A DNA stretch of 64,000 bases from Candidatus Onthomonas avicola (GTDB taxonomy: Bacteria; Bacillota; Clostridia; Oscillospirales; Oscillospiraceae), in the NCBI GenBank assembly GCA_018710845.1, contig DVJB01000064.1, positions 1-64,000 of the forward strand. The letters are read 5' to 3'. The notes under the pieces were generated by a model that saw nothing but the letters and a program-made list of their open reading frames with translations, was not told the origin of the DNA and ran no database searches. Shown here one piece after another: positions 9,465-51,694 of this stretch (position 1 is the stretch's first letter; the number at the start of each line of letters is the position of its first letter). A program made the position numbers and the translations under genes.

Positions 9465-9503
9465 AAAAAACGGTCCCGGAAGCGGCACGTGCCTCCGGGA
9501 CCG
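9465..9503 (-). terminator. Terminator of the YhcH-M55 transcript
   Basis: Ten-bp perfect stem (9471-9480/9494-9503) followed on the minus strand by six T, nine bases past the M55 stop. Confidence 0.85.
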
Positions 9504-9512
9504 AAACAATCT

Positions 9513-10340
9513 TCAAAGTATGGCGTCCAGACTGGCTTTGCGTGCCAGGTATTCGGCCCAGCACTCCAGCACGCTCGCGCCGTGCAGGGTGAGACCTGGG
9601 AAAAGTGTCTGAAATTTCCCGCCATATTCCGTTGGGTAGAATGACATTTTCAGTTCAACCGGGGCGGGAAATACAAAGGGCGCGACCACCGGAGGGGACT
9701 CGGCCAGCTGACGCGCGGCCTGATAAATACGTCGGTGCACTTTCGGAACGGACAGGCACTCACCTCCCGTCCCGTCACAGGACTCCTTGACGCAGACGCA
9801 GAGACAGCCGGGAGCGATGGACTGTGCCTCCTCGGCCCCGGCGCTGTCGCCGGTAAACAGCAGCAGCGGCACCTGAAAACAGCCGGCAATCGCGGCTTCC
9901 ATGCCGATTTCTCCCACACTGTGCCCATTGATCTGGATATCGGAGATGTTCTTGTCGTAGGAATGGTGCAGCAGAGCTTCCCGCTCTGACACATGTGTGC
10001 CGGCCTTGGAATGAAAGCCGAGCAGGATGAGCCCGGTCGTCTCCCGGTCCAGGCCGCCGGCCCAGCTCCGCGTGTAGTCAGGTTTGCCACAGAAAAAGGA
10101 AATGTCGGCCCTGTAGGTGTCCGGAATCTGATCCAGAAGAATGTTGTGGCCATAACAGTGCTCATCATACACCTGGATGACGTCGGCTCCGCCGTCATCC
10201 AGCCCCTTCAGCAAAGCGAGCAGGTCGCTCATAAAGTAACGGCGGCCATCTTGATATTCTGCCTGCCACGGCTCTGCCTGTACATAGGAGACAATACCGC
10301 TGGCGCCCTCCAGGTCGCAGCGGACAACAAATTTTTTCAT
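9513..10340 (-). CDS. M55-family zinc D-aminopeptidase (DppA-like)
   Basis: A 275-residue member of peptidase family M55, whose characterised member DppA cleaves D-amino acids from D-Ala-type peptides in a decameric ring. Expected metal ligands can be read: DLEG near the start (Asp9, Glu11), DEHCYGHN, LGFHSKAG, HHSYDKNI and a glutamate in VGEIGMEAA. It is preceded by GAAAGGAAG and follows the YhcH gene by 43 bases on the same strand, ending at a strong terminator. Within the island it suggests that the substrate contains or releases D-amino acids. The actual substrate is unknown. Confidence 0.88.
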   Translation of the reverse strand: MKKFVVRCDLEGASGIVSYVQAEPWQAEYQDGRRYFMSDLLALLKGLDDGGADVIQVYDEHCYGHNILLDQIPDTYRADISFFCGKPDYTRSWAGGLDRETTGLILLGFHSKAGTHVSEREALLHHSYDKNISDIQINGHSVGEIGMEAAIAGCFQVPLLLFTGDSAGAEEAQSIAPGCLCVCVKESCDGTGGECLSVPKVHRRIYQAARQLAESPPVVAPFVFPAPVELKMSFYPTEYGGKFQTLFPGLTLHGASVLECWAEYLARKASLDAIL

Positions 10341-10383
10341 ATGCTTCCTTTCTACGTAAAAGAAATATAGATTATATTCTATG

Positions 10384-10860
10384 TTACGAAATGAACTGGC
10401 TGGAGGCTGCTACCTTGATAATCACTTTTTTCACGGCACAGGAGCTGCCGTCCTGCCAGTCACAGCGGGTTTTGTGGAGATCATCCGGAGAAAAGACGGC
10501 GATCTCTCCGGCGTGGAGAATCAACTGGCTGCAGGGCTCCGGCGGATCAGAAAAAAAGAGGATGTCTTCCCCGGGGTTGTATGGGACGAGAATGGGAGGG
10601 GAATTCTGGCTGGAAGTGACAAAAATACGCTCCTGACCGGAGAGAATACACTGTACATCCCAATATTTTTGATGTCCCTCCAGGTGACACTGGGAGACGG
10701 GGGCGGTGCGGTATTCCTGCACGACGGCAAAACAGCGCGGGCCATCAATCTCAATTCGACCGGGAGCGGTCGTCGTGAGGTCGTGGGTTTGCAGGTATTG
10801 AAAAGCGCGTTTCAGACCGGGTGGAGCAGAGGCTGGTGAGGAGAGAGTCTGCAGAATCAT
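10384..10860 (-). CDS. YhcH/YjgK/YiaL-family protein (DUF386)
   Basis: A 158-residue cupin-like protein of the family that includes E. coli YhcH, YiaL and the EbgC beta subunit, usually found in sugar-acid or sialic-acid operons. Recognisable blocks are HLEGHQKYWDVQCIL, a central PYNPGEDILFF and C-terminal FSPDDLHKTRC followed by KKVIIKV. The ATG at 10860 has AAAGGAG eight bases upstream; a longer reading would cross the divergent promoter region. First gene of the leftward arm. Family members are proposed to act on sugar anomers or as small epimerases, but the role here is inferred only. Confidence 0.85.
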   Translation of the reverse strand: MILQTLSSPASAPPGLKRAFQYLQTHDLTTTAPGRIEIDGPRCFAVVQEYRTAPVSQCHLEGHQKYWDVQCILSGQERIFVTSSQNSPPILVPYNPGEDILFFSDPPEPCSQLILHAGEIAVFSPDDLHKTRCDWQDGSSCAVKKVIIKVAASSQFIS

Positions 10861-10924
10861 TGTGGCTCCTTTCTGTTTGTCAAAATCAAAGATAGACAAT
10901 TGGGCACAAAAGAATTGGATAAAT

Positions 10925-10941
10925 ATTCCGTATAGCAGAAT
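10925..10941. promoter_or_regulatory. Putative IclR operator, leftward arm
   Basis: The 17-base site ATTCCGTATAGCAGAAT matches the perfect dyad at 11090-11106 in 14 of 17 positions. It sits 17 bases downstream of the leftward -10 box, where a bound repressor would block initiation. Confidence 0.6.
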
Positions 10942-10957
10942 TTGTAGGGACAACGCA

Positions 10958-10986
10958 ATTATATCAACTGAATTATAAAAAGTTAA
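10958..10986 (-). promoter_or_regulatory. Promoter of the YhcH-M55 arm
   Basis: Minus-strand TTAACT (10981-10986), 17-base spacer and a perfect TATAAT (10958-10963), within an AT-rich stretch. Confidence 0.65.
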
Positions 10987-11050
10987 TTGTAGAACTATAC
11001 AAAAATGAAATAGAAAAATTGTGAGTAATGTCGAAAGTGATTGCGCCATA

Positions 11051-11079
11051 TTGACAGAAGAGAGCGATCGGGATATAGT
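11051..11079 (+). promoter_or_regulatory. Promoter of the aldolase arm
   Basis: Perfect TTGACA (11051-11056), 17-base spacer and TATAGT (11074-11079). Confidence 0.8.
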
Positions 11080-11089
11080 GAGATCATGC

Positions 11090-11106
11090 ATTCCGTACAA
11101 CGGAAT
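11090..11106. promoter_or_regulatory. Putative IclR operator, rightward arm
   Basis: Perfect dyad ATTCCGT-ACA-ACGGAAT centred about 20 bases downstream of the rightward -10 box and overlapping the expected transcription start region. Size and symmetry fit a dimeric helix-turn-helix repressor; the IclR protein at 16613 is the obvious candidate. Confidence 0.65.
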
Positions 11107-11124
11107 AAAACGGAGGTGTGAGAA

Positions 11125-11922
11125 ATGGTACACATGATGGCAGAGACACCGATCAAACGGAAAATCCGGGATGGAAAGGTGGTGACAATGACATTCCTGG
11201 ATTCGACCTGTCCAAACACTGCGGAGACGATTGCGCTGGCTGGCTGCGATATTGTCTGCATTGACAATGAACACGGCTGTTGGAGCTCTGAGCAGATCGT
11301 CAATGCTGCGCGGGCAGTGACGGCGCTCGGAAAGGCGGCGGTGCTACGGACGACCTGCAACGACACCAACCAGATTGCACACTGGATGGACTGCGGCCTG
11401 ACCGGCATTTTTGCGACGATGATTCAGGACGCCGCGGCGGCGCAGCGGGTGATCGACGGGGTCAAGTTTGCCCCGATTGGAAAGCGCGGCGTCTGTTTTA
11501 ACAGCCGGGCGGCCAATTTTGGGATGCATGGGATGTCGGTAGAAGATTACATGAATTGGCAGAACGAGAACACGATCATTATGGTGGATGTGGAGTCGGT
11601 CAGCGCCATAGACGACCTGGACAATATTATTGCTCTTGACCAAATTGATGTTGTCCATACCGGAATGTGGGACCTGGCCAGCGCCTACGGCCATTATGGG
11701 AGAGCCTTTGATCCGGAAATTCAGAAGATCAACAATGACGCAATTGCCAAAATCATTGCACGCACCGGACGCTGCTGCGCCTATGCAGCGGAAGCGTCTG
11801 AGGTGCCCGCGGTCATCTCCAGAGGGTTCAAGATGGTGCAGTTTGGCGGAGAGTACGATATGATTGCCCGGCATATTCGGGCCTGCCAGGATATTGTAGA
11901 CGCGTATAACGAGTCGCACTGA
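11125..11922 (+). CDS. HpcH/HpaI-family aldolase
   Basis: A 265-residue class II aldolase-like TIM barrel related to 2-keto-3-deoxy sugar-acid and 4-hydroxy-2-oxo-acid aldolases. Family residues are present: IDNEHG (catalytic His), an arginine in VLRTTCND, PIGKRG, the metal-ligand glutamate in MVDVES and an aspartate in TGMWDLAS. This implies retro-aldol cleavage of an intermediate to pyruvate (or a related keto acid) plus an aldehyde. GGAGGTG precedes the ATG. It is the first gene of the rightward arm, 49 bases before the transporter gene. The true substrate is unknown. Confidence 0.85.
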   Translation: MVHMMAETPIKRKIRDGKVVTMTFLDSTCPNTAETIALAGCDIVCIDNEHGCWSSEQIVNAARAVTALGKAAVLRTTCNDTNQIAHWMDCGLTGIFATMIQDAAAAQRVIDGVKFAPIGKRGVCFNSRAANFGMHGMSVEDYMNWQNENTIIMVDVESVSAIDDLDNIIALDQIDVVHTGMWDLASAYGHYGRAFDPEIQKINNDAIAKIIARTGRCCAYAAEASEVPAVISRGFKMVQFGGEYDMIARHIRACQDIVDAYNESH

Positions 11923-11971
11923 CCTGGCTAGGGAGACGAAAAGACGAAAAACAGTTCTTGGGAGGTAATAT

Positions 11972-13324
11972 ATGGAACTATTTATTGGCATTGTGCTGCT
12001 GATTTCCTTTGTCGGCCTGGTGATCTATGCCGTCCGGGGCGGAAATATGGCCTTGGGGGTCATTATCATGGCCACCCTGTGGACGGTTTTGGCGGTGCTC
12101 GGCCACTTTACGTCCAGTGAGGCATTCTTGGCCGCCAACGAGGCTGCGGGCAGCCTGACGGTGATGGATGCCATCAATACGGTCTATCAGACCGCGTTTA
12201 CCGATAACGGCGCCAATACGGTGCTGTTCTTCTTTGGTGCGTTCTTTGGGCGCATCCTGCTGGATACTGGCATTGCCCCCGCGCTGATCCGCAAGACGGT
12301 GGAGCTGGGCGGTGATAAGCCGGTGGTCACTGCCGTGCTGCTCAACATTGTTGTGGCGGGTATCTTCACGTCCATGTTTGGCACGGGCGCGGTGATTGCC
12401 CTGGGCGTGATTGTGCTGCCGATTCTGCTGTCTCTGGGGATTGACAAACGTGTGGCCCTCACGTCGTTTATGCTGGCCATCGGCGCCGGCTTGTATCTCA
12501 ATGCGCTGCCCTTTGCCCAGTACCAGATCTACTACGCCGACGGCAGTGACTATCTGTTCAACGGTCAGTATCTCCGCTTTGGCATTACCGCGCTGGCGGT
12601 CCAGCTGATTGTAACGATCGGCTACACCATCATCGCCTCCCGGAAGCGCCGCCACTCCGTGGCCTGGGCGGCGAGCACGGCTGTGCCGGATCACGGCGGA
12701 AAGCCGGTGCCTGGAATCGCGCTCATCACGCCGTTCCTGCCGGTGGCGCTGGTGATCGCGTTCAACATGCCGATCTGCTTTGCTTTCCTGATTTCGGCGC
12801 TGTTTGCCCTGATTGTCTGCGGAAAACTGACCAGCTTTTCCGAAGCGGCGCGGATTATCACCAAGAATTTCAACGACGGCGTCGTAGACACCGCTCCGCT
12901 GCTGTGCTTCATGATGTTCATCCAGGCGTTCAACAAGGCGGCCAGCCTCTGTGTTCCCTATTTCAACGCAGTCCTGGGCGATGTGATTCCCAGAAGCGCG
13001 CTGCTGATCTGCATTATCTTTGCCGTGTTTGCGCCCGCAGGCCTGTTCCGCGGACCGCTGACGCTGGCGGGCTCCGGCGCGGCGATGCTTGGCATTCTCT
13101 CCGGCCTCGGCTTCAGCACGGTGCTGCTGTACCCCCTGTTTTACGCTCCGACCATCACGATGAATATCTCTTGCTGCATTACGCAGTCCTGGATTGTCTG
13201 GGGACTGAATTACACGAAGAATGACTCGAAAGAATACCTGACGCACAGTATCCCCTGCGGCTGGATTATCTGTATTATCCTGGCGGCCTTTACCTATTTT
13301 TACTTCGGTGCAATGGCCTTTTGA
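11972..13324 (+). CDS. Ion-transporter-superfamily carboxylate/sugar-acid permease (GntP/CitM-like)
   Basis: A 450-residue integral membrane protein with about 11-12 hydrophobic segments. Two Gly/Ala-rich half repeats and a central charged loop (SRKRRHSVAW) point to the ion transporter superfamily that includes gluconate (GntP) and citrate (CitMHS) symporters. A TSMFGTGAVIALG segment resembles the re-entrant loop region. The family assignment is by general character rather than a diagnostic motif. Placed between the aldolase and the hydantoinase-like gene, it is probably the uptake system for this island's organic-acid substrate. Ribosome site GGGAGG precedes the ATG. Confidence 0.65.
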   Translation: MELFIGIVLLISFVGLVIYAVRGGNMALGVIIMATLWTVLAVLGHFTSSEAFLAANEAAGSLTVMDAINTVYQTAFTDNGANTVLFFFGAFFGRILLDTGIAPALIRKTVELGGDKPVVTAVLLNIVVAGIFTSMFGTGAVIALGVIVLPILLSLGIDKRVALTSFMLAIGAGLYLNALPFAQYQIYYADGSDYLFNGQYLRFGITALAVQLIVTIGYTIIASRKRRHSVAWAASTAVPDHGGKPVPGIALITPFLPVALVIAFNMPICFAFLISALFALIVCGKLTSFSEAARIITKNFNDGVVDTAPLLCFMMFIQAFNKAASLCVPYFNAVLGDVIPRSALLICIIFAVFAPAGLFRGPLTLAGSGAAMLGILSGLGFSTVLLYPLFYAPTITMNISCCITQSWIVWGLNYTKNDSKEYLTHSIPCGWIICIILAAFTYFYFGAMAF

Positions 13325-13344
13325 TATCGCCGGCGCCGCTGCAG

Positions 13345-13368
13345 CTCCCCCGCCCGCGCGGGGGAGCG
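13345..13368. repeat. GC-rich hairpin between transporter and hydantoinase-like gene
   Basis: Nine-bp perfect stem (GCTCCCCCG with its complement) and a 6-base loop, 20 bases after the transporter stop. No T run follows, so it more likely stabilises or paces the upstream message than terminates it. Confidence 0.5.
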
Positions 13369-13467
13369 CGCAGATTGCCCTTAGAAACTAGAAAGTAATG
13401 CGGCCCTGATACCGGGGTCTGCTGACAAATAGAATATCAGAAGCTGATTGGAATAGGAGTGACGCAT

Positions 13468-15594
13468 ATGAGCAGACGGCAGGTCCGGATGGGAATTGAC
13501 GTAGGTGGAACTTATACAAAGGCGGTGGCCATTGACAATGATACCCATGAGATCATAGGCAAGTCTCAGATCAAGACCACGCATGGCGACCCGGCCGGCG
13601 TGGCGGCCGGTGTGGTGAAGACGTTCCGGAATTGCCTGCAGGAAAACGGGATTGACCCGGACGAGGTGATCTTTGTCGCCCACTCCACCACGCAGGCGAC
13701 AAATGCCCTTGTGGAGGGAGATGTGGCCAATGTCGGCATTGTCGGCGTGGCGAAGGGGGGCATAGAGGGCTTTCTGGCCAAGCGGCAGGTCCGTATCGAC
13801 GATATTCAGATTGCCGAGAACAAGAAGATTCGGGTGTTCAACTGTTTTGTCAAGCGCAAGGAGCTGACAGACGAACGGATCCGCACAGAGCTGTCCCGGC
13901 TTCAGGAGCAGGGGGCGGAGGTGATGGTGGCCTCCATGGCGTTCGGCGTAGACAGTATGGGAGAGGAGGAACGGATTCAAGAGATTGCGCAGTCCATGGG
14001 ACTGCCCACGACAATGGCGTCTGATATCACCAAGCTCTATGGTCTGACGCGCCGGACGCGGACCGCTGCCATCAATGCCAGCATTTTGCCCAAAATGCTC
14101 CACACGGCCAATTCCACCGAGGCAAGTGTCCGCGGCGCGGGCGTGACGGTCCCGCTGATGATCATGCGCGGCGACGGGGGCGTGATGGAGATCAACGAGG
14201 TGAAAAAGCGCCCCGTGCTCACGATGCTCTCCGGGCCGGCCGCGTCGGTGATGGGCTCTCTGATGTATCTGAGGGCATCCAACGGAGTTTACTTTGAGGT
14301 TGGCGGGACGACAACCAATATCGGTGTGATCAAAAATGGCCGTCCGGCGATTGACTACGCCGTAGTAGGAGGTCACCGCACCTATATCAATTCCCTGGAC
14401 GTGCGCGTGCTGGGCTGCGCTGGGGGGAGCATGATTCGCATCGGAAGCCAGGGCGTGACAGATGTCGGTCCCAGAAGCGCCCATATTGCCGGCCTGGAGT
14501 ATGCGGTCTATACACCGCTGGAGGAGATCGAGGACCCGCAGCTGGAGCTGATCTCCCCCCGCCCGGGGGATCCGGCAGACTATGTGGCCATCCGGCTCAA
14601 AAGCGGCAAGCGGATCACCATCACGAATTCCTGTGCGGCCAACGTGCTTGGACTGGTCAAGGAGGAGCATTTTTCCCACGGCAATGCCGCGGCGGCCCGC
14701 AAGGCGATGCAGCCGGTGGCCGACCACCTCGGCATCAGCGTAGAAGAGCTGGCCAAGCAGATTATGGAGCGGGCGTATGCCAAGATCTCTCCGATCGTGC
14801 TGGAGCTGGCGGAGAAATACCGCGTGGAGCGCGATCAGATTTCCCTGGTAGGCGTAGGCGGCGGGGCGGCGTCGTTGGTGATCTACTTTGCGCAGAAGAT
14901 GGGCGTCAAGTACAGCATTCCGGAAAATGCCGAGGTGATCAGCTCCATTGGCGTGGCGCTGGCCATGGTACGTGACGTGGTGGAACGCATCATCCCGAAT
15001 CCCACCTCGGACGATATCCGCTCCATCAAGCAGGAGGCGCTGACGAAGGCGGTGGAGAGCGGGGCGCAGCCGGAGAGCGTAGAGGTCCATATTGAGATTG
15101 ACCCGCAGACCTCAAAGGTGACCGCCATCGCGCTTGGCTCCACTGAGGTTAAGACGACTGATCTGCTGGCTGCCTGTACGGTGCAGGAGGCGCAGAAGCT
15201 GGCGGCAGAGGATCTCTCCCTTCCGGAGCAAGAGGTAGAGTTGTTGGCGCAGTCCAAGTATTTTTACGTCTTTGCCGGCCGGAAAGGACGGGAGCGTCCC
15301 ATCCGAATCCTGGACAAAAAAGGCTTTATCAAAGTGCAGCGCTCGAACGGGTGCAGTGTGGTGGTTCGGGCCAAGGACTACCAGAGAGAGGTGGCCAGGC
15401 TATACGAGGAGATGGCGACCTATAACGCCGACAGCATTCTGCGTCCGGATTATTATCTGGCAGTCGGCGGAAAAATTCTGGATGTGGCCGGTACAGGGGA
15501 CCTGCAGCAGAGCCTGATGCTGATGGATGTCGAGGTGTCGCTGTGCGATCCGGAAGAGGAAGTGATCGTGACGGCGGCGCAGAACAAGCTGTGA
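13468..15594 (+). CDS. Hydantoinase/oxoprolinase-family protein (HyuA-like)
   Basis: A 708-residue protein of the ATP-dependent hydantoinase A/oxoprolinase family, which open lactams or carboxylate ketones in complex with a HyuB subunit. The N-terminal ASKHA-type motif is GIDVGGTYTKAVAID (about residues 7-20); the second phosphate motif reads FEVGGTTTNIG where most relatives have DIGGTT or DMGGTT; SGPAASVMGS lies just before it and VGVGGGAAS follows further on. No HyuB partner is encoded nearby, so it may work alone or in a different reaction. Start ATG 13468 is preferred over GTG 13459 because AGGAG lies eight bases upstream. Confidence 0.8.
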   Translation: MSRRQVRMGIDVGGTYTKAVAIDNDTHEIIGKSQIKTTHGDPAGVAAGVVKTFRNCLQENGIDPDEVIFVAHSTTQATNALVEGDVANVGIVGVAKGGIEGFLAKRQVRIDDIQIAENKKIRVFNCFVKRKELTDERIRTELSRLQEQGAEVMVASMAFGVDSMGEEERIQEIAQSMGLPTTMASDITKLYGLTRRTRTAAINASILPKMLHTANSTEASVRGAGVTVPLMIMRGDGGVMEINEVKKRPVLTMLSGPAASVMGSLMYLRASNGVYFEVGGTTTNIGVIKNGRPAIDYAVVGGHRTYINSLDVRVLGCAGGSMIRIGSQGVTDVGPRSAHIAGLEYAVYTPLEEIEDPQLELISPRPGDPADYVAIRLKSGKRITITNSCAANVLGLVKEEHFSHGNAAAARKAMQPVADHLGISVEELAKQIMERAYAKISPIVLELAEKYRVERDQISLVGVGGGAASLVIYFAQKMGVKYSIPENAEVISSIGVALAMVRDVVERIIPNPTSDDIRSIKQEALTKAVESGAQPESVEVHIEIDPQTSKVTAIALGSTEVKTTDLLAACTVQEAQKLAAEDLSLPEQEVELLAQSKYFYVFAGRKGRERPIRILDKKGFIKVQRSNGCSVVVRAKDYQREVARLYEEMATYNADSILRPDYYLAVGGKILDVAGTGDLQQSLMLMDVEVSLCDPEEEVIVTAAQNKL

Positions 15595-15622
15595 CCGCTT
15601 TGCGTGAGGAGGTGCTGTGGAG

Positions 15623-16393
15623 ATGGCGGCGAAACTTCTTTCTCAGGTGGTGGATTTTTATCAAAAACGCTATCGGGAGATGAGCGGTGTCCCACAGGGC
15701 GATGGTACGCCTATTGAGCAGATGATCCCGGCGCTGATCGCCTTGCCGCCGGAGGTCTATGGCGCCTATGCCTTTCGGCGTGACCCGATTCAGGGCCGCT
15801 TTGACCGGCAGCAGCGCAAAGAGCTGATTGCCCGGGCATTGGCCTGCGGGCGCGAGCAGGCCGAGGAATACCGGCGGCGCTTTGGAGCGCTGCGGCCCAG
15901 TGAAATCGCGCGCCGGCTGGGGCTGAAATTGGACAGCCCATCCATCCCGGAGGGGGGAGGACGGGTGCTCTTTGCCCAGTTTACCGAGCCGGACCGGATT
16001 TCCGTCTATCAGGACTGCCTGGACCGGGCCGCGGAGACGATCCGACGGCACCATCTGTCCCCGCTTTTGGGACACGCGGAATTGCGGGAGGTGCTGATCG
16101 CCCATGAACTGTTTCATGAGCTGGAGTACCGCGAGGGAGAACGGCTCTTCACGCGGAGCTACCGGGTCAGGCTCTGGAAGCTGGGGCCGTTTGTCAACGA
16201 TTCGCGGCTGGGCTGCCTGAGTGAGATCGGCGCGATGGCGTTCGCGCAGACATTGGCGGGCATCTCCTTCCCCCCCAATGTGCTGGACGTGCTTCTGGTA
16301 TATGGCTATCAGCCGGAGGCAGCTTGCGCCCTTTATACGGAAATCTGCACCCTGTCCGCTAAGGAAGAGGAGAAAATAGAGGCCTCCTATTGA
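15623..16393 (+). CDS. Putative HExxH metallopeptidase, ImmA/IrrE-like
   Basis: A 256-residue protein without a close family that I recognise. It contains AHELFHELE (His161, Glu162, His165) and about 35 residues later CLSEIGAMAFAQTLAG, which fits the ExxAxxFA block that supplies the third zinc ligand in ImmA/IrrE-type gluzincins. No signal peptide or membrane segment is seen, so it is likely cytoplasmic. It directly follows the hydantoinase-like gene (28 bases) and ends just before the iclR promoter. ATG 15623 is used; GTG 15617 is an alternative only four bases from GGAGG. It could be a peptidase acting on the imported compound or a regulator-cleaving protease. Confidence 0.6.
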   Translation: MAAKLLSQVVDFYQKRYREMSGVPQGDGTPIEQMIPALIALPPEVYGAYAFRRDPIQGRFDRQQRKELIARALACGREQAEEYRRRFGALRPSEIARRLGLKLDSPSIPEGGGRVLFAQFTEPDRISVYQDCLDRAAETIRRHHLSPLLGHAELREVLIAHELFHELEYREGERLFTRSYRVRLWKLGPFVNDSRLGCLSEIGAMAFAQTLAGISFPPNVLDVLLVYGYQPEAACALYTEICTLSAKEEEKIEASY

Positions 16394-16418
16394 TTTGGGG
16401 CACAAAAACTGCTATAAT
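16390..16418 (+). promoter_or_regulatory. Promoter of the iclR gene
   Basis: TTGATT (16390-16395), 17-base spacer and perfect TATAAT (16413-16418). It overlaps the last codons of the preceding gene. The resulting leader is nearly 190 bases long. Confidence 0.65.
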
Positions 16419-16612
16419 AATGCCTGCTTAATATCCGGAACGGCAGTTTGTCTGCCTGGCGGGAGGAGGCTTTCCTGCGGGGCTGGCAAGCGGGCAGGTA
16501 AAGTGGTATTTTGTGACTGAAGATGAGGTGGAGACCCGGCGATTGACAGGGTGCCCGGGCTGTCAAATGGCAGACAGAGCATGGTCAGACGGCGGAGATG
16601 TGAGGGTAACGT

Positions 16613-17380
16613 ATGTCTGACACGAGTATTCAAGCGGTAGAGCGCAGCCTGGATATTGTAGAGTTTTTGTACCATTTTGGGCGGGAGGCCAGTGTCAGCG
16701 AGATCAGCGAGGGGACGGGGATGTTCGGCTCCACGGTCTTTCGTCAGCTCTCTACGCTGAAAAAACGGGGCTATGTCTATCAAAATGCAGAGAATCAGAA
16801 ATATTGGCTTGGATTGCGTTTTTGTGCCCTGGGCAACGCGGTAAAGCTCAATACGCCGATTATCCAGTGCGTGGACGCTGCGGCAACTGCCGTGGCGGAA
16901 AAGTACAGTCAGACCCTCACAGTCACAGTGCCGCAGTATTCCTCTGCTGCCTGCGCGCAGCAGACCGTCATCTACTGCAAGAGTTTTTCCGTTACCAGCG
17001 CGGATCTGGATGTGGTGGGAGAGGTGATTCCCTGTCACTGCTCTGCCACCGGACGGTGCCTGATGGCCTATTATTCCAAAGAGCAGATGGAGCAGTACAG
17101 CCGCCATCCGCTGACAAAGGTCACCAACAAGACGGTGGTAGACTGGATGGCCCTGAAGGCGGAGCTGGAATCTATCCGCTATCGCGGCTATACCTGTGTC
17201 TCCGAAGAGGAGAAGGAGGGTCAGACCTGTGTAGCGGTGCCGGTTTTGGGAGAAAACGGGGAACTGATCGCGGCGATTGGCCTGGCAGGCGATACGATGC
17301 GGATGTTTGACTATCCCATTAACTGTATGGTGGCGGATCTGGAACAGATCGCCGAACAGATTCGGAACCAGATGAAATGA
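16613..17380 (+). CDS. IclR-family transcriptional regulator
   Basis: A 255-residue regulator with an N-terminal winged helix-turn-helix (VERSLDIVEFL ... SVSEISEGTGMFGSTVFRQLSTL) and the C-terminal IclR ligand-binding domain (SATGRCLMAYY, GYTCVSEEE, VPVLGENGELIAAIGLAG). IclR proteins usually control adjacent catabolic genes and respond to a pathway metabolite. It is the last gene of the island and has its own promoter. Its likely operators are the two 17-bp dyads in the divergent region at 10.9-11.1 kb. Repression is inferred from the dyads lying downstream of the -10 boxes. Confidence 0.9.
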   Translation: MSDTSIQAVERSLDIVEFLYHFGREASVSEISEGTGMFGSTVFRQLSTLKKRGYVYQNAENQKYWLGLRFCALGNAVKLNTPIIQCVDAAATAVAEKYSQTLTVTVPQYSSAACAQQTVIYCKSFSVTSADLDVVGEVIPCHCSATGRCLMAYYSKEQMEQYSRHPLTKVTNKTVVDWMALKAELESIRYRGYTCVSEEEKEGQTCVAVPVLGENGELIAAIGLAGDTMRMFDYPINCMVADLEQIAEQIRNQMK

Positions 17381-27454: not shown

Positions 27455-27527
27455 TGACCCGTCGGGGATTCGAACCCCGGACACCCTGCTTAAAAGGCAG
27501 GTGCTCTGCCGACTGAGCTAACGGGTC
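27455..27527 (-). tRNA. tRNA-Lys(TTT)
   Basis: 73-base cloverleaf on the minus strand: acceptor GACCCGT/ACGGGTC, D arm GCTC/GAGC, anticodon loop CTTTTAA and T loop TTCGAAT in a CGGGG/CCCCG stem. Discriminator A; CCA not encoded. Last gene of the leftward tRNA cluster. Confidence 0.97.
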
Positions 27528-27532
27528 ATATC

Positions 27533-27604
27533 CTGGGATGGCGGGACTCGAACCCACGAATGCGGGAGTCAAAGTCCCGTGCCTTACCACTTGGCGACAT
27601 CCCA
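27533..27604 (-). tRNA. tRNA-Gln(TTG)
   Basis: Minus-strand cloverleaf with acceptor TGGGATG/CATCCCA, anticodon loop CTTTGAC (TTG) and T loop TTCGAGT. Only five bases separate it from tRNA-Lys, so both come from one precursor. Confidence 0.96.
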
Positions 27605-27626
27605 TCAAAATCCCGCCAAGGCGGAA

Positions 27627-27662
27627 GAAAAAAGGTCAGACCGGAGGGGCCCGCTCTGACCT
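27627..27662 (-). terminator. Terminator inside the tRNA cluster
   Basis: Eight-bp perfect stem (27633-27640/27655-27662), followed on the minus strand by a T run (TTTTTTCTT). It sits between tRNA-His and tRNA-Gln, and no good promoter was seen for the Gln-Lys pair. Confidence 0.75.
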
Positions 27663-27685
27663 GGCTCCCTGTTGAGGGGAAACAG

Positions 27686-27760
<75 letters not shown>

Positions 27761-27818
27761 ATATCCACTTGTCGGGCAACGCCGCGGCTCAGGGGACAGT
27801 CCCAAGGGCCGGACGCAC

Positions 27819-27892
<74 letters not shown>

Positions 27893-27898
27893 ATCTGG

Positions 27899-27969
27899 AG
27901 CGGGTGATGGGAATCGAACCCACGCGACCAGCTTGGAAGGCTGGGATTCTACCATTGAACTACACCCGC
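27899..27969 (-). tRNA. tRNA-Gly(TCC)
   Basis: 71-base minus-strand cloverleaf, acceptor GCGGGTG/CACCCGC, anticodon loop CTTCCAA, T loop TTCGATT. First gene of the leftward tRNA operon. Confidence 0.96.
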
Positions 27970-47241: not shown

Positions 47242-47315
47242 GGGCCCGTAGCTCAGCTGGGAGAGCGCACGGTTCGCATCCGTGAGGTTCGAGGGTTCGA
47301 TCCCCTTCGGGTCCA
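47242..47315 (+). tRNA. tRNA-Ala(CGC)
   Basis: Cloverleaf with acceptor GGGCCCG/CGGGTCC, D arm GCTC/GAGC, anticodon stem CACGG/CCGTG around loop TTCGCAT (anticodon CGC), T loop TTCGATC, discriminator A. A CGC-anticodon Ala tRNA reads GCG and fits a GC-rich genome. CCA is not encoded. Confidence 0.93.
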
Positions 47316-51119: not shown

Positions 51120-51196
51120 GGGAGCATAGCTCAGCTGGTTAGAGCACCTGCCTTACAAGCAGGGGGTCACAGGTTCGAGTCCTGTTGTTCCCACCA
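51120..51196 (+). tRNA. tRNA-Val(TAC)
   Basis: 77 bases including encoded CCA: acceptor GGGAGCA/TGTTCCC, D arm GCTC/GAGC, anticodon loop CTTACAA, T loop TTCGAGT, discriminator A. Confidence 0.97.
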
Positions 51197-51234
51197 CTGT
51201 CGTATCACAGTGCCCGTCATCGGGGATACTGCCT

Positions 51235-51308
51235 GGCCCGGTAGTTCAGTTGGTTAGAACGCTAGCCTGTCACGCTAGAGGTCGACGGTTCGAGCCCGTT
51301 CCGGGTCG
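51235..51308 (+). tRNA. tRNA-Asp(GTC)
   Basis: Acceptor GGCCCGG/CCGGGTC, anticodon loop CTGTCAC (GTC) in a CTAGC/GCTAG stem, T loop TTCGAGC, discriminator G; CCA not encoded. GTC is the anticodon type that carries queuosine and is modified by GluQ (gluQ at 5 kb). Its 3' end is duplicated 71 bases downstream. Confidence 0.97.
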
Positions 51309-51381
51309 CTCTCGCTCTTTCCCAAAGGCGAGTATTCGAAAGTCCGCTTTCGGATGAGGGAAAGGCCCGTTCCGGGTCGCT
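51294..51381. repeat. Duplicated tRNA-Asp 3' end (att-like direct repeat)
   Basis: The 17-base sequence from GCCCGTT through CCGGGTCGCT occurs at 51294-51310 (tRNA 3' end) and again at 51365-51381. The 54-base interval contains nested inverted repeats (CTTTCCC/GGGAAAG and CGAAAG/CTTTCG). Integrases that target tRNA genes leave exactly such a duplicated 3' end. Confidence 0.7.
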
Positions 51382-51410
51382 TTAAAAAGAGGTTCTTCGG
51401 AGCCATATAT

Positions 51411-51483
51411 GCCTCTGTAGCTCAGTTGGTAGAGCAGGGGACTGAAAATCCCCGTGTCATTGGTTCGATTCCGATCGGAGGCA
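51411..51483 (+). tRNA. tRNA-Phe(GAA)
   Basis: 73 bases: acceptor GCCTCTG/CGGAGGC, anticodon stem GGGGA/TCCCC with loop CTGAAAA, T loop TTCGATT, discriminator A. Confidence 0.97.
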
Positions 51484-51507
51484 TCCCGCCCGGCTGGCCG
51501 GGCATCT

Positions 51508-51583
51508 GCGGGAGTAGCTCATCTGGTAGAGCGCCACCTTGCCAAGGTGGAGGTAGCGAGTTCGAGCCTCGTCTTCCGCTCCA
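51508..51583 (+). tRNA. tRNA-Gly(GCC)
   Basis: Acceptor GCGGGAG/CTTCCGC, anticodon stem CCACC/GGTGG with loop TTGCCAA, T loop TTCGAGC, discriminator T and encoded CCA. Confidence 0.97.
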
Positions 51584-51622
51584 AATGAAAACAGGAGCTT
51601 TTGCGGCTCCTGTTTTCCATAT

Positions 51623-51694
51623 GGCAACATAGCCAAGTGGTAAGGCGTGGGTCTGCAAAACCCTGATTCCCCGGTTCGAATCCGGGTGTTGCCT
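51623..51694 (+). tRNA. tRNA-Cys(GCA)
   Basis: Acceptor GGCAACA/TGTTGCC, anticodon loop CTGCAAA in a TGGGT/ACCCT-like stem, T loop TTCGAAT, discriminator T. Last gene of the operon; a 10-bp hairpin lies between it and tRNA-Gly (51588-51613). Confidence 0.96.

Follow-up and report, generated by a model that had tools for sequence, protein, structure and literature searches.

What does a HyuA-like ATPase do when it lacks its usual HyuB partner and stands beside an unrecognized HExxH protein? This pairing is the most interesting element of a locus in a 64,000-nucleotide stretch from Candidatus Onthomonas avicola (contig DVJB01000064.1, positions 1 to 64,000; hereafter the window), which an earlier note made from the letters alone had described as a seven-gene catabolic island. 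At its core are three consecutive genes, for a permease (PERM), the HyuA-like ATPase (HYU) and the HExxH protein (HEXXH), which form a recurrent module across distant bacteria and are not a local oddity:

11972-13324, + strand: PERM, permease of 450 amino acids, core gene 1
13459-15594, + strand: HYU, HyuA-like ATPase, core gene 2; Pfam Hydant_A_N (PF05378, E 9e-20) and Hydantoinase_A (PF01968, E 5.2e-63)
15617-16393, + strand: HEXXH, metalloprotease-like protein of 258 amino acids, core gene 3; start GTG 15617 or ATG 15623

For HYU, ATG 13468 is a likelier start than GTG 13459, and relatives begin at the position matching this ATG. The window PERM and HEXXH matched no Pfam family up to E 10 and no NCBIfam model up to E 0.01. 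With no significant Pfam model for either protein, annotation would display "hydantoinase" and overlook the system.

A phylum sample of 398 genomes was searched with three profiles (E limits of 1e-15 for PERM, 1e-60 for HYU and 1e-4 for HEXXH), which were built from module members and hence favour them. PERM was found in 23, HYU in 22 and HEXXH in 19 genomes, the last being a lower bound: the HEXXH of genome G966, missed genome-wide, is visible at 5e-9 on its stretch L092. PERM and HYU occurred together in 21 of the 23 PERM genomes, every HEXXH genome also had HYU (19/19), and all three were present in 18 genomes from 10 families (hypergeometric co-occurrence values of 1e-31 to 1e-25, kinship ignored). 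Among the HYU matches listed, with at most two candidates scored per genome, the E-value range from 1e-60 to 2.9e-170 is empty, which separates the family clearly. HYU is a discrete HyuA family whose carriers span 12 taxonomic families and whose almost invariable partner is an unnamed protein other than HyuB.

The 28 PERM genes of this sample (30 rows, two genes being in two pieces each) have HYU on the same stretch in 26 cases, and HEXXH accompanies 21 of the 28; four stretches end at a contig edge first, and three are without it (L085, L096 and L099). With the window permease as query, a class sample of 391 genomes gave 11 genes in 7 genomes, and HYU and HEXXH sit with 10 of these 11. When the window HEXXH was used as a single query, 7 of 10 matches had HYU in the cluster; a plasmid search with HEXXH gave no match. 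The present genome carries a second copy of the module on contig C4 (L017:12008-18628), with HYU, permease and HExxH protein. The HYU of this copy is 46% identical to that of the window over residues 7-706. In place of HpcH/HpaI and IclR, this copy has an FAD oxidoreductase and a DHDPS-family gene, together with genes recognized by eye as PfkB and GntR. Our literature search, with subscription papers largely outside its coverage, found no description of the module and no pathway with this gene set, in agreement with the earlier note.

In a distance comparison of 36 complete triples, HEXXH tracked HYU (partial r 0.45 with PERM fixed) and barely PERM (0.13 with HYU fixed), and the partial correlation of HYU with PERM was 0.73. 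This pattern favours HYU as the putative hub of the module, with physical contact not implied.

To our knowledge, HyuA-type ATPases are described with a HyuB-type partner. A HyuB search (PF02538) over 12 genomes, three of them 82-87% complete and L014-L016 (see below) not among them, was negative in 11: in 10 of 11 HYU carriers including the present genome, which bears out the missing partner remarked on in the earlier note, and in G615, where PERM is the only core gene observed and which was not in the HYU search. The same search was positive in 6 of 14 control genomes.

HYU has the N-terminal and ATPase domains of HyuA and resembles it over profile residues 2-336, with a weak resemblance at about 384-500; its closest solved relatives are an N-methylhydantoinase (7hk5) and CapA (6yra). 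The first phosphate-motif Asp, D14, is invariant in 42/42 HYU proteins. The second phosphate motif has Glu (E280) in all 42 and Asp in 7hk5 and 6yra, so that HYU keeps one of the two phosphate-binding Asp residues of HyuAB (CapA D11 and D295). A structure model of HYU had a predicted local distance difference test score (pLDDT) of 46.7 and was not used. ASKHA reductive activases of the HgdC/BadF or RACo type bind an Fe-S cluster through conserved Cys residues; no column exceeds 80% Cys among the 42 HYU proteins, and this reading was rejected. PMC8453981 describes a HyuA-type ATPase with a HyuB-type partner, caprolactamase, in which Ala mutants of CapA D11 and D295 gave 0.05 and 0.4% conversion; activation in CapA and tunnel passage to a metal site in CapB are proposed there. 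The HyuA of PMC12507026 is an amidohydrolase that shares the name and belongs to another family than HYU.

All 37 HEXXH proteins contain H163, E164, H167 and E203, the HExxH motif plus distal Glu also found in M78 proteins, through which HEXXH should bind zinc; it is the constant metal-site candidate of the module. M78 (PF06114), which the window protein does not match at E 10, was not among the nine families matched by any of 18 HEXXH members at E 1, and module HEXXH proteins were not among the PF06114 matches in 12 carrier genomes. In hhalign, the HEXXH alignment (37 proteins) matched 14 M78-type proteins with a probability of 93.4 (E 2.5e-7, 101 columns), the match including the distal E..A..FA helix that carries the distal Glu. 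Twenty column-shuffled M78 alignments gave 0 to 0.3. Another zincin alignment (two sequences, below its own family cut-off) gave 40.9, so part of the match is the zinc motif in common. The HEXXH profile found nothing below E 0.29 among PDB sequences, and a weak AlphaFold model from four sequences (pLDDT 58) had PprI/IrrE as its top two Foldseek matches, both non-significant (E 0.75 and 0.79). By profile comparison, HEXXH is a remote relative of ImmA/IrrE and not a member; the ImmA/IrrE-like protein of the earlier note was retained as remote kinship, and M78 membership by Pfam was rejected.

Directly 3' of HEXXH in three related genomes, there are open frames of 2634-3351 amino acids that look secreted by eye (L040:10835-18757, L041:15-10070 and L043:2237-10141).

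Four further genes flank the core in the window:

9513-10340, - strand: M55 D-aminopeptidase-family gene; Pfam Peptidase_M55 (E 1.1e-46)
10384-10860, - strand: YhcH/YjgK/YiaL family gene, start ATG 10860; TIGR00022 (99.7 bits, cut-off 45.5), Pfam YhcH/DUF386 (E 2.9e-37)
11125-11922, + strand: HpcH/HpaI aldolase; Pfam HpcH_HpaI (E 5.2e-20)
16613-17380, + strand: IclR-family regulator; Pfam IclR_C and HTH_IclR

All seven genes lie where the earlier note had placed them, and its M55, YhcH, HpcH_HpaI, Hydantoinase_A and IclR names are upheld by Pfam. Against narrower NCBIfam equivalogs, the M55 gene scored 104.1 bits for DppA (cut-off 430), leaving it in the wider M55 family, and the YhcH gene 85 bits for N-acetylneuraminate anomerase (NanQ/YhcH; cut-off 160); its product is possibly a sugar anomerase. 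A named function for the aldolase was rejected on the NCBIfam cut-offs of HpaI (117 of 369 bits), GarL (107 of 407) and RhmA (107 of 441).

The locus consists of two layers, a conserved aldolase-PERM-HYU-HEXXH-IclR operon and an M55-YhcH arm. The five-gene order is identical in all three close relatives found, L014 (a metagenome-assembled genome of Erysipelotrichaceae), L015 (Diplocloster agilis) and L016 (D. modestus), which came from a pattern scan of a genome collection with the permease that reaches near relatives only. Identities to these are 63-73% for the aldolase, 75-79% for PERM, 74% for HYU, 37-44% for HEXXH and 44-46% for IclR. M55, searched by BLAST with the window protein at 1e-6, lies within six genes of none of the 41 other HYU genes and is apparently a local addition outside the conserved module; a conserved seven-gene unit was rejected for this reason. 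The earlier observation is sound for the five + strand genes, whose order recurs beyond chance in the three relatives, and too wide for seven. YhcH genes occur near the module in L014, L015 and L016, arranged otherwise than in the window. A PPC-domain-like gene, named by eye, adjoins two YhcH genes (L015:7408-7851, L016:15689-16138 and L014:5967-6404); that of L016 had no NCBIfam match at 1e-10.

The HYU proteins of the window and L014-L016 form one branch of the HYU tree (support 100/99), even though their hosts are one Erysipelotrichaceae, one Lachnospiraceae genus and the present genome; this suggests that the five-gene operon may have passed between lineages by transfer. Within the host genus, HYU at E 1e-40 was found in 1 of 21 genomes, the present one with its two copies, so close kin are without the operon altogether. 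Scattering in relatives with no co-occurrence, which the earlier note had named as grounds for giving up its island, was not seen for five of the seven genes; their absence from close kin in the genus counts against this. Of the 20 other genomes of the genus, 19 have the DapF-like and 17 the PFK-like flanking gene (both named by eye), mostly on separate contigs. In one, G1071, they lie on one contig 2 kb apart, facing each other, unlike in the window, and no empty-site junction was drawn for that reason.

Candidate control elements of the two arms are as follows:

9471-9503, - strand: terminator-like hairpin 3' of M55 (13-pair stem, T run)
10958-10986, - strand: promoter-like site facing YhcH (10/12 consensus positions)
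10883-10856, - strand: second promoter-like site facing YhcH
11051-11079, + strand: promoter-like site facing the aldolase (TTGACA-17-TATAGT, 11/12)
11090-11106, no strand: perfect 7-3-7 palindrome and candidate operator, immediately 3' of the aldolase promoter
13344-13367, + strand: hairpin between PERM and HYU (10-nt perfect arms)

Degenerate copies of the palindrome occur at 10925, 10376 and 9626, the last within M55; the 64 kb hold 4 matches against 1.8 expected, a level reached by 12 of 100 shuffles, so that the degenerate copies taken together do not exceed chance. The window palindrome is not kept upstream of the aldolase in L014-L016, where other palindromes stand. An operator common to both arms and bound by IclR is possible, as a candidate only. 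The continuous operon spacing described in the earlier note is interrupted by the 134-nt gap between PERM and HYU with its 10-bp hairpin (the same gap in L015/L016, both Diplocloster, also has a hairpin, with a different sequence) and by a 219-nt gap before IclR that holds a promoter-like site of its own. Elsewhere in the window, tRNA genes form two clusters of five (27455-27969 and 51120-51694), with a single one at 47242.

For the class of substrate, companion genes up to six genes away from 42 HYU genes were counted by BLAST to one or a few representatives, with the window entered by hand; two L033 modules have some neighbours in common in these counts. The companions were FAD oxidoreductase (20 of 42), ROK (10), a NanE-like TIM protein (9), IclR (8), KdgK/PfkB (6), YhcH, GntR and RpiR (5 each), HpcH/HpaI, Ldh_2 and Eda (4 each), a PPC-like protein (3), KduI, SDR, GH78 and DUF4127 (2 each), and DapA, HPS, SIS and M55 (1 each). 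Those over NCBIfam cut-offs were 3-dehydro-L-gulonate 2-dehydrogenase (the YiaK equivalog, a YiaK-type Ldh_2) in L031, KduI and gluconate 5-dehydrogenase in L033, and eda and hexulose-phosphate synthase in L074. These firm companions are sugar-acid or sugar-phosphate enzymes and point to sugar-acid catabolism as the probable pathway. The nitrogen-containing substrate proposed in the earlier note is unsupported, given the KduI, YiaK-type Ldh_2 and Eda found elsewhere, and so is release of a D-amino acid as a pathway step, M55 having been seen at the window copy only. A muramic-lactam or sialate substrate, considered for the YhcH, NanE-like and DHDPS-family companions, was dropped as the companions were inconsistent.

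In L074, HYU and HEXXH lie alongside KdgK, HPS, SIS and Eda. PERM genes of L036 (9111-10382) and L085 (9110-10390) lie beside KdgK, HPS-like, SIS and isomerase-like TIM genes, with Eda in L036 and no labelled Eda in L085, and neither stretch has HYU or HEXXH (HPS and SIS of both were named by eye). Because L036 and L085 hold L074-like gene sets without HYU and HEXXH, it looks as if HYU and HEXXH may make the substrate ready for a route that is otherwise complete. Within the PERM family there are weak matches to CitMHS (10/18), DcuC (8) and GntP (2), with none for the window protein; an organic anion as PERM substrate fits these matches. The operon probably serves the regulated breakdown of an organic acid, and to this extent the import and catabolism put forward in the earlier note stand.

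Two side observations concern the companions. A TIM-barrel-like family of 225-238 amino acids (L037:8588-9280, with relatives in L079, L080, L081, L082, L083, L089 and L092) occurs in 9 of 42 modules; the L037 member has no Pfam match at 0.001, the best PDB sequence match of the family has E 1e-4, and 4 of 8 weakly match NanE. DUF4127 proteins, of which no mention was found in the literature searched, lie inside the module in L089 (10738-12243) and L092 (13883-15382).

How might the module work? We tentatively favour, at somewhat less than an even chance, a mobile three-gene catabolic module as the core of the locus, with HYU and HEXXH as an ATP-dependent composite enzyme that opens an imported organic acid and HEXXH replacing HyuB. 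PERM would import a carbohydrate-derived organic acid, HYU would activate its carbonyl with ATP (through a phosphorylated or carboxylated intermediate, on the model put forward for caprolactamase), and zinc-bound HEXXH would stand in for HyuB and finish the hydrolysis. The released acid would give a 2-oxo-acid intermediate, which the HpcH/HpaI aldolase would split into an aldehyde and pyruvate or a related 2-oxo acid, making the retro-aldol step of the earlier note plausible; YhcH would determine the anomer, and the operon would be under IclR control. In other genomes, the same core would be combined with other output enzymes (FAD oxidoreductase, Ldh_2, Eda, DHDPS family or KduI). Gene content and order, co-occurrence, the lack of HyuB in most carriers searched and the invariant motifs are observed; we infer the action of HYU and HEXXH as one enzyme, activation by ATP, zinc, substrate class, direction of flux and regulation. 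A bolder form, which we regard as doubtful, makes PERM-HYU-HEXXH a new ATP-dependent hydrolase class in which HyuB is swapped for an ImmA/IrrE-fold zinc protein and which travels, together with its permease, among distant bacteria as an exchangeable front end for sugar-acid pathways.

Several observations weigh against a composite enzyme of this kind. The Asp-to-Glu change at the CapA D295 position in 42/42 HYU proteins might reflect changed or lost ATP chemistry, the last 200 residues of HYU are unalignable with solved HyuA proteins, and HYU covaries more tightly with PERM than with HEXXH. HEXXH resembles a protease family, not an amidohydrolase, and neither HYU nor HEXXH gave a usable structure. 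HyuB is present in one HYU carrier, G025, where it sits on a separate contig. The stretches L036, L085 and L099 (the last with a distant family member) have PERM and no HYU, and G919 and G922 have no HYU genome-wide at 1e-60; L096 (G985) has PERM-HYU with HEXXH absent from both stretch and genome search, and three weak HEXXH matches (L010-L012, E 3.9e-5 to 6.0e-5) have different surroundings that include no HYU. Eight of the 42 HYU genes have no labelled companion within six genes, and no recurrent lactam-specific companion was found near HYU.

The protease likeness allows another reading, in which HYU alone does the ATP-dependent chemistry and HEXXH is an ImmA/IrrE-like protease with a regulatory or maturation role, which senses either the imported compound or the state that HYU is in and switches the pathway by cutting HYU, the permease or the local regulator. 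The profile match to M78, far above its shuffled controls, and the PprI/IrrE proteins at the top of the non-significant Foldseek ranking speak for it; however, the zincin control shows the match to be partly zinc motif, PF06114 does not list the module proteins in the 12 carrier genomes, and the regulators near the module vary (IclR 8, GntR 5, ROK 10 and RpiR 5 of 42) whereas HEXXH stays with HYU in 19/19 genomes. We consider this reading unlikely. ASKHA-fold families include sugar kinases, and HYU could instead be an ATPase that works like a kinase or synthetase on the sugar acid itself, with HEXXH as a metal-dependent esterase or amidase for another step of the pathway. Such a role would suit the strong covariation of HYU with PERM (partial r 0.73) and the changed second phosphate motif, but HYU is HyuA-like over both aligned regions and HEXXH never occurs without HYU in the phylum sample, and we regard it as rather improbable. 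Least probable is the lactam or D-amino-acid-conjugate pathway of the earlier note, with ring opening of a lactam or hydantoin by HyuA, release of a D-amino acid by M55 and cleavage of a keto acid by the aldolase. Family knowledge of HyuA and M55 and the divergent M55-YhcH arm beside the operon, with its possible common operator, are in its favour; yet M55 was seen near 0/41 other HYU genes, and sugar-acid enzymes make up the firm companions (no search was aimed at aminotransferases or deaminases).

If, as we favour, HEXXH replaces HyuB in a composite enzyme, a metalloprotease fold would have come to supply the hydrolytic half of an ATP-dependent enzyme. Through the module, an organic-acid route of anaerobes such as Diplocloster becomes open to experiment.

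Among known systems, the E. coli yiaK-S operon for 2,3-diketo-L-gulonate use, whose make-up is given here from general knowledge, shares with the window a YhcH/YiaL family gene and an IclR-type regulator. Its YiaK has an equivalog over cut-off in the L031 module, and no Ldh_2 gene lies beside the window module; we know of no counterpart of HYU or HEXXH in this operon. The window aldolase belongs to the same HpcH/HpaI family as GarL, HpaI and RhmA and is none of these equivalogs by bit score. Like ImmA/IrrE (Peptidase_M78), HEXXH has HExxH and a distal Glu and is linked to that family by the profile comparison (93.4), but it is undetected by PF06114 and adjoins a HyuA-like ATPase and a permease. 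HYU gives distant HyuA-type matches to acetone and acetophenone carboxylases (5l9w, 5svb and 5m45), whose metal subunit is HyuB-like according to PMC8453981, whereas HyuB is mostly absent from the HYU carriers searched. With the ATP-dependent caprolactamase/hydantoinase/5-oxoprolinase systems (CapAB, HyuA-HyuB), which include its nearest solved relatives 7hk5 and 6yra, HYU shares Hydant_A_N, Hydantoinase_A and the first phosphate-motif Asp; it differs in the second Asp, replaced by Glu in 42/42, in its unaligned C-terminal 200 residues, and in that 10 of 11 searched carriers are without HyuB, the usual partner of HYU being the unnamed HExxH protein.

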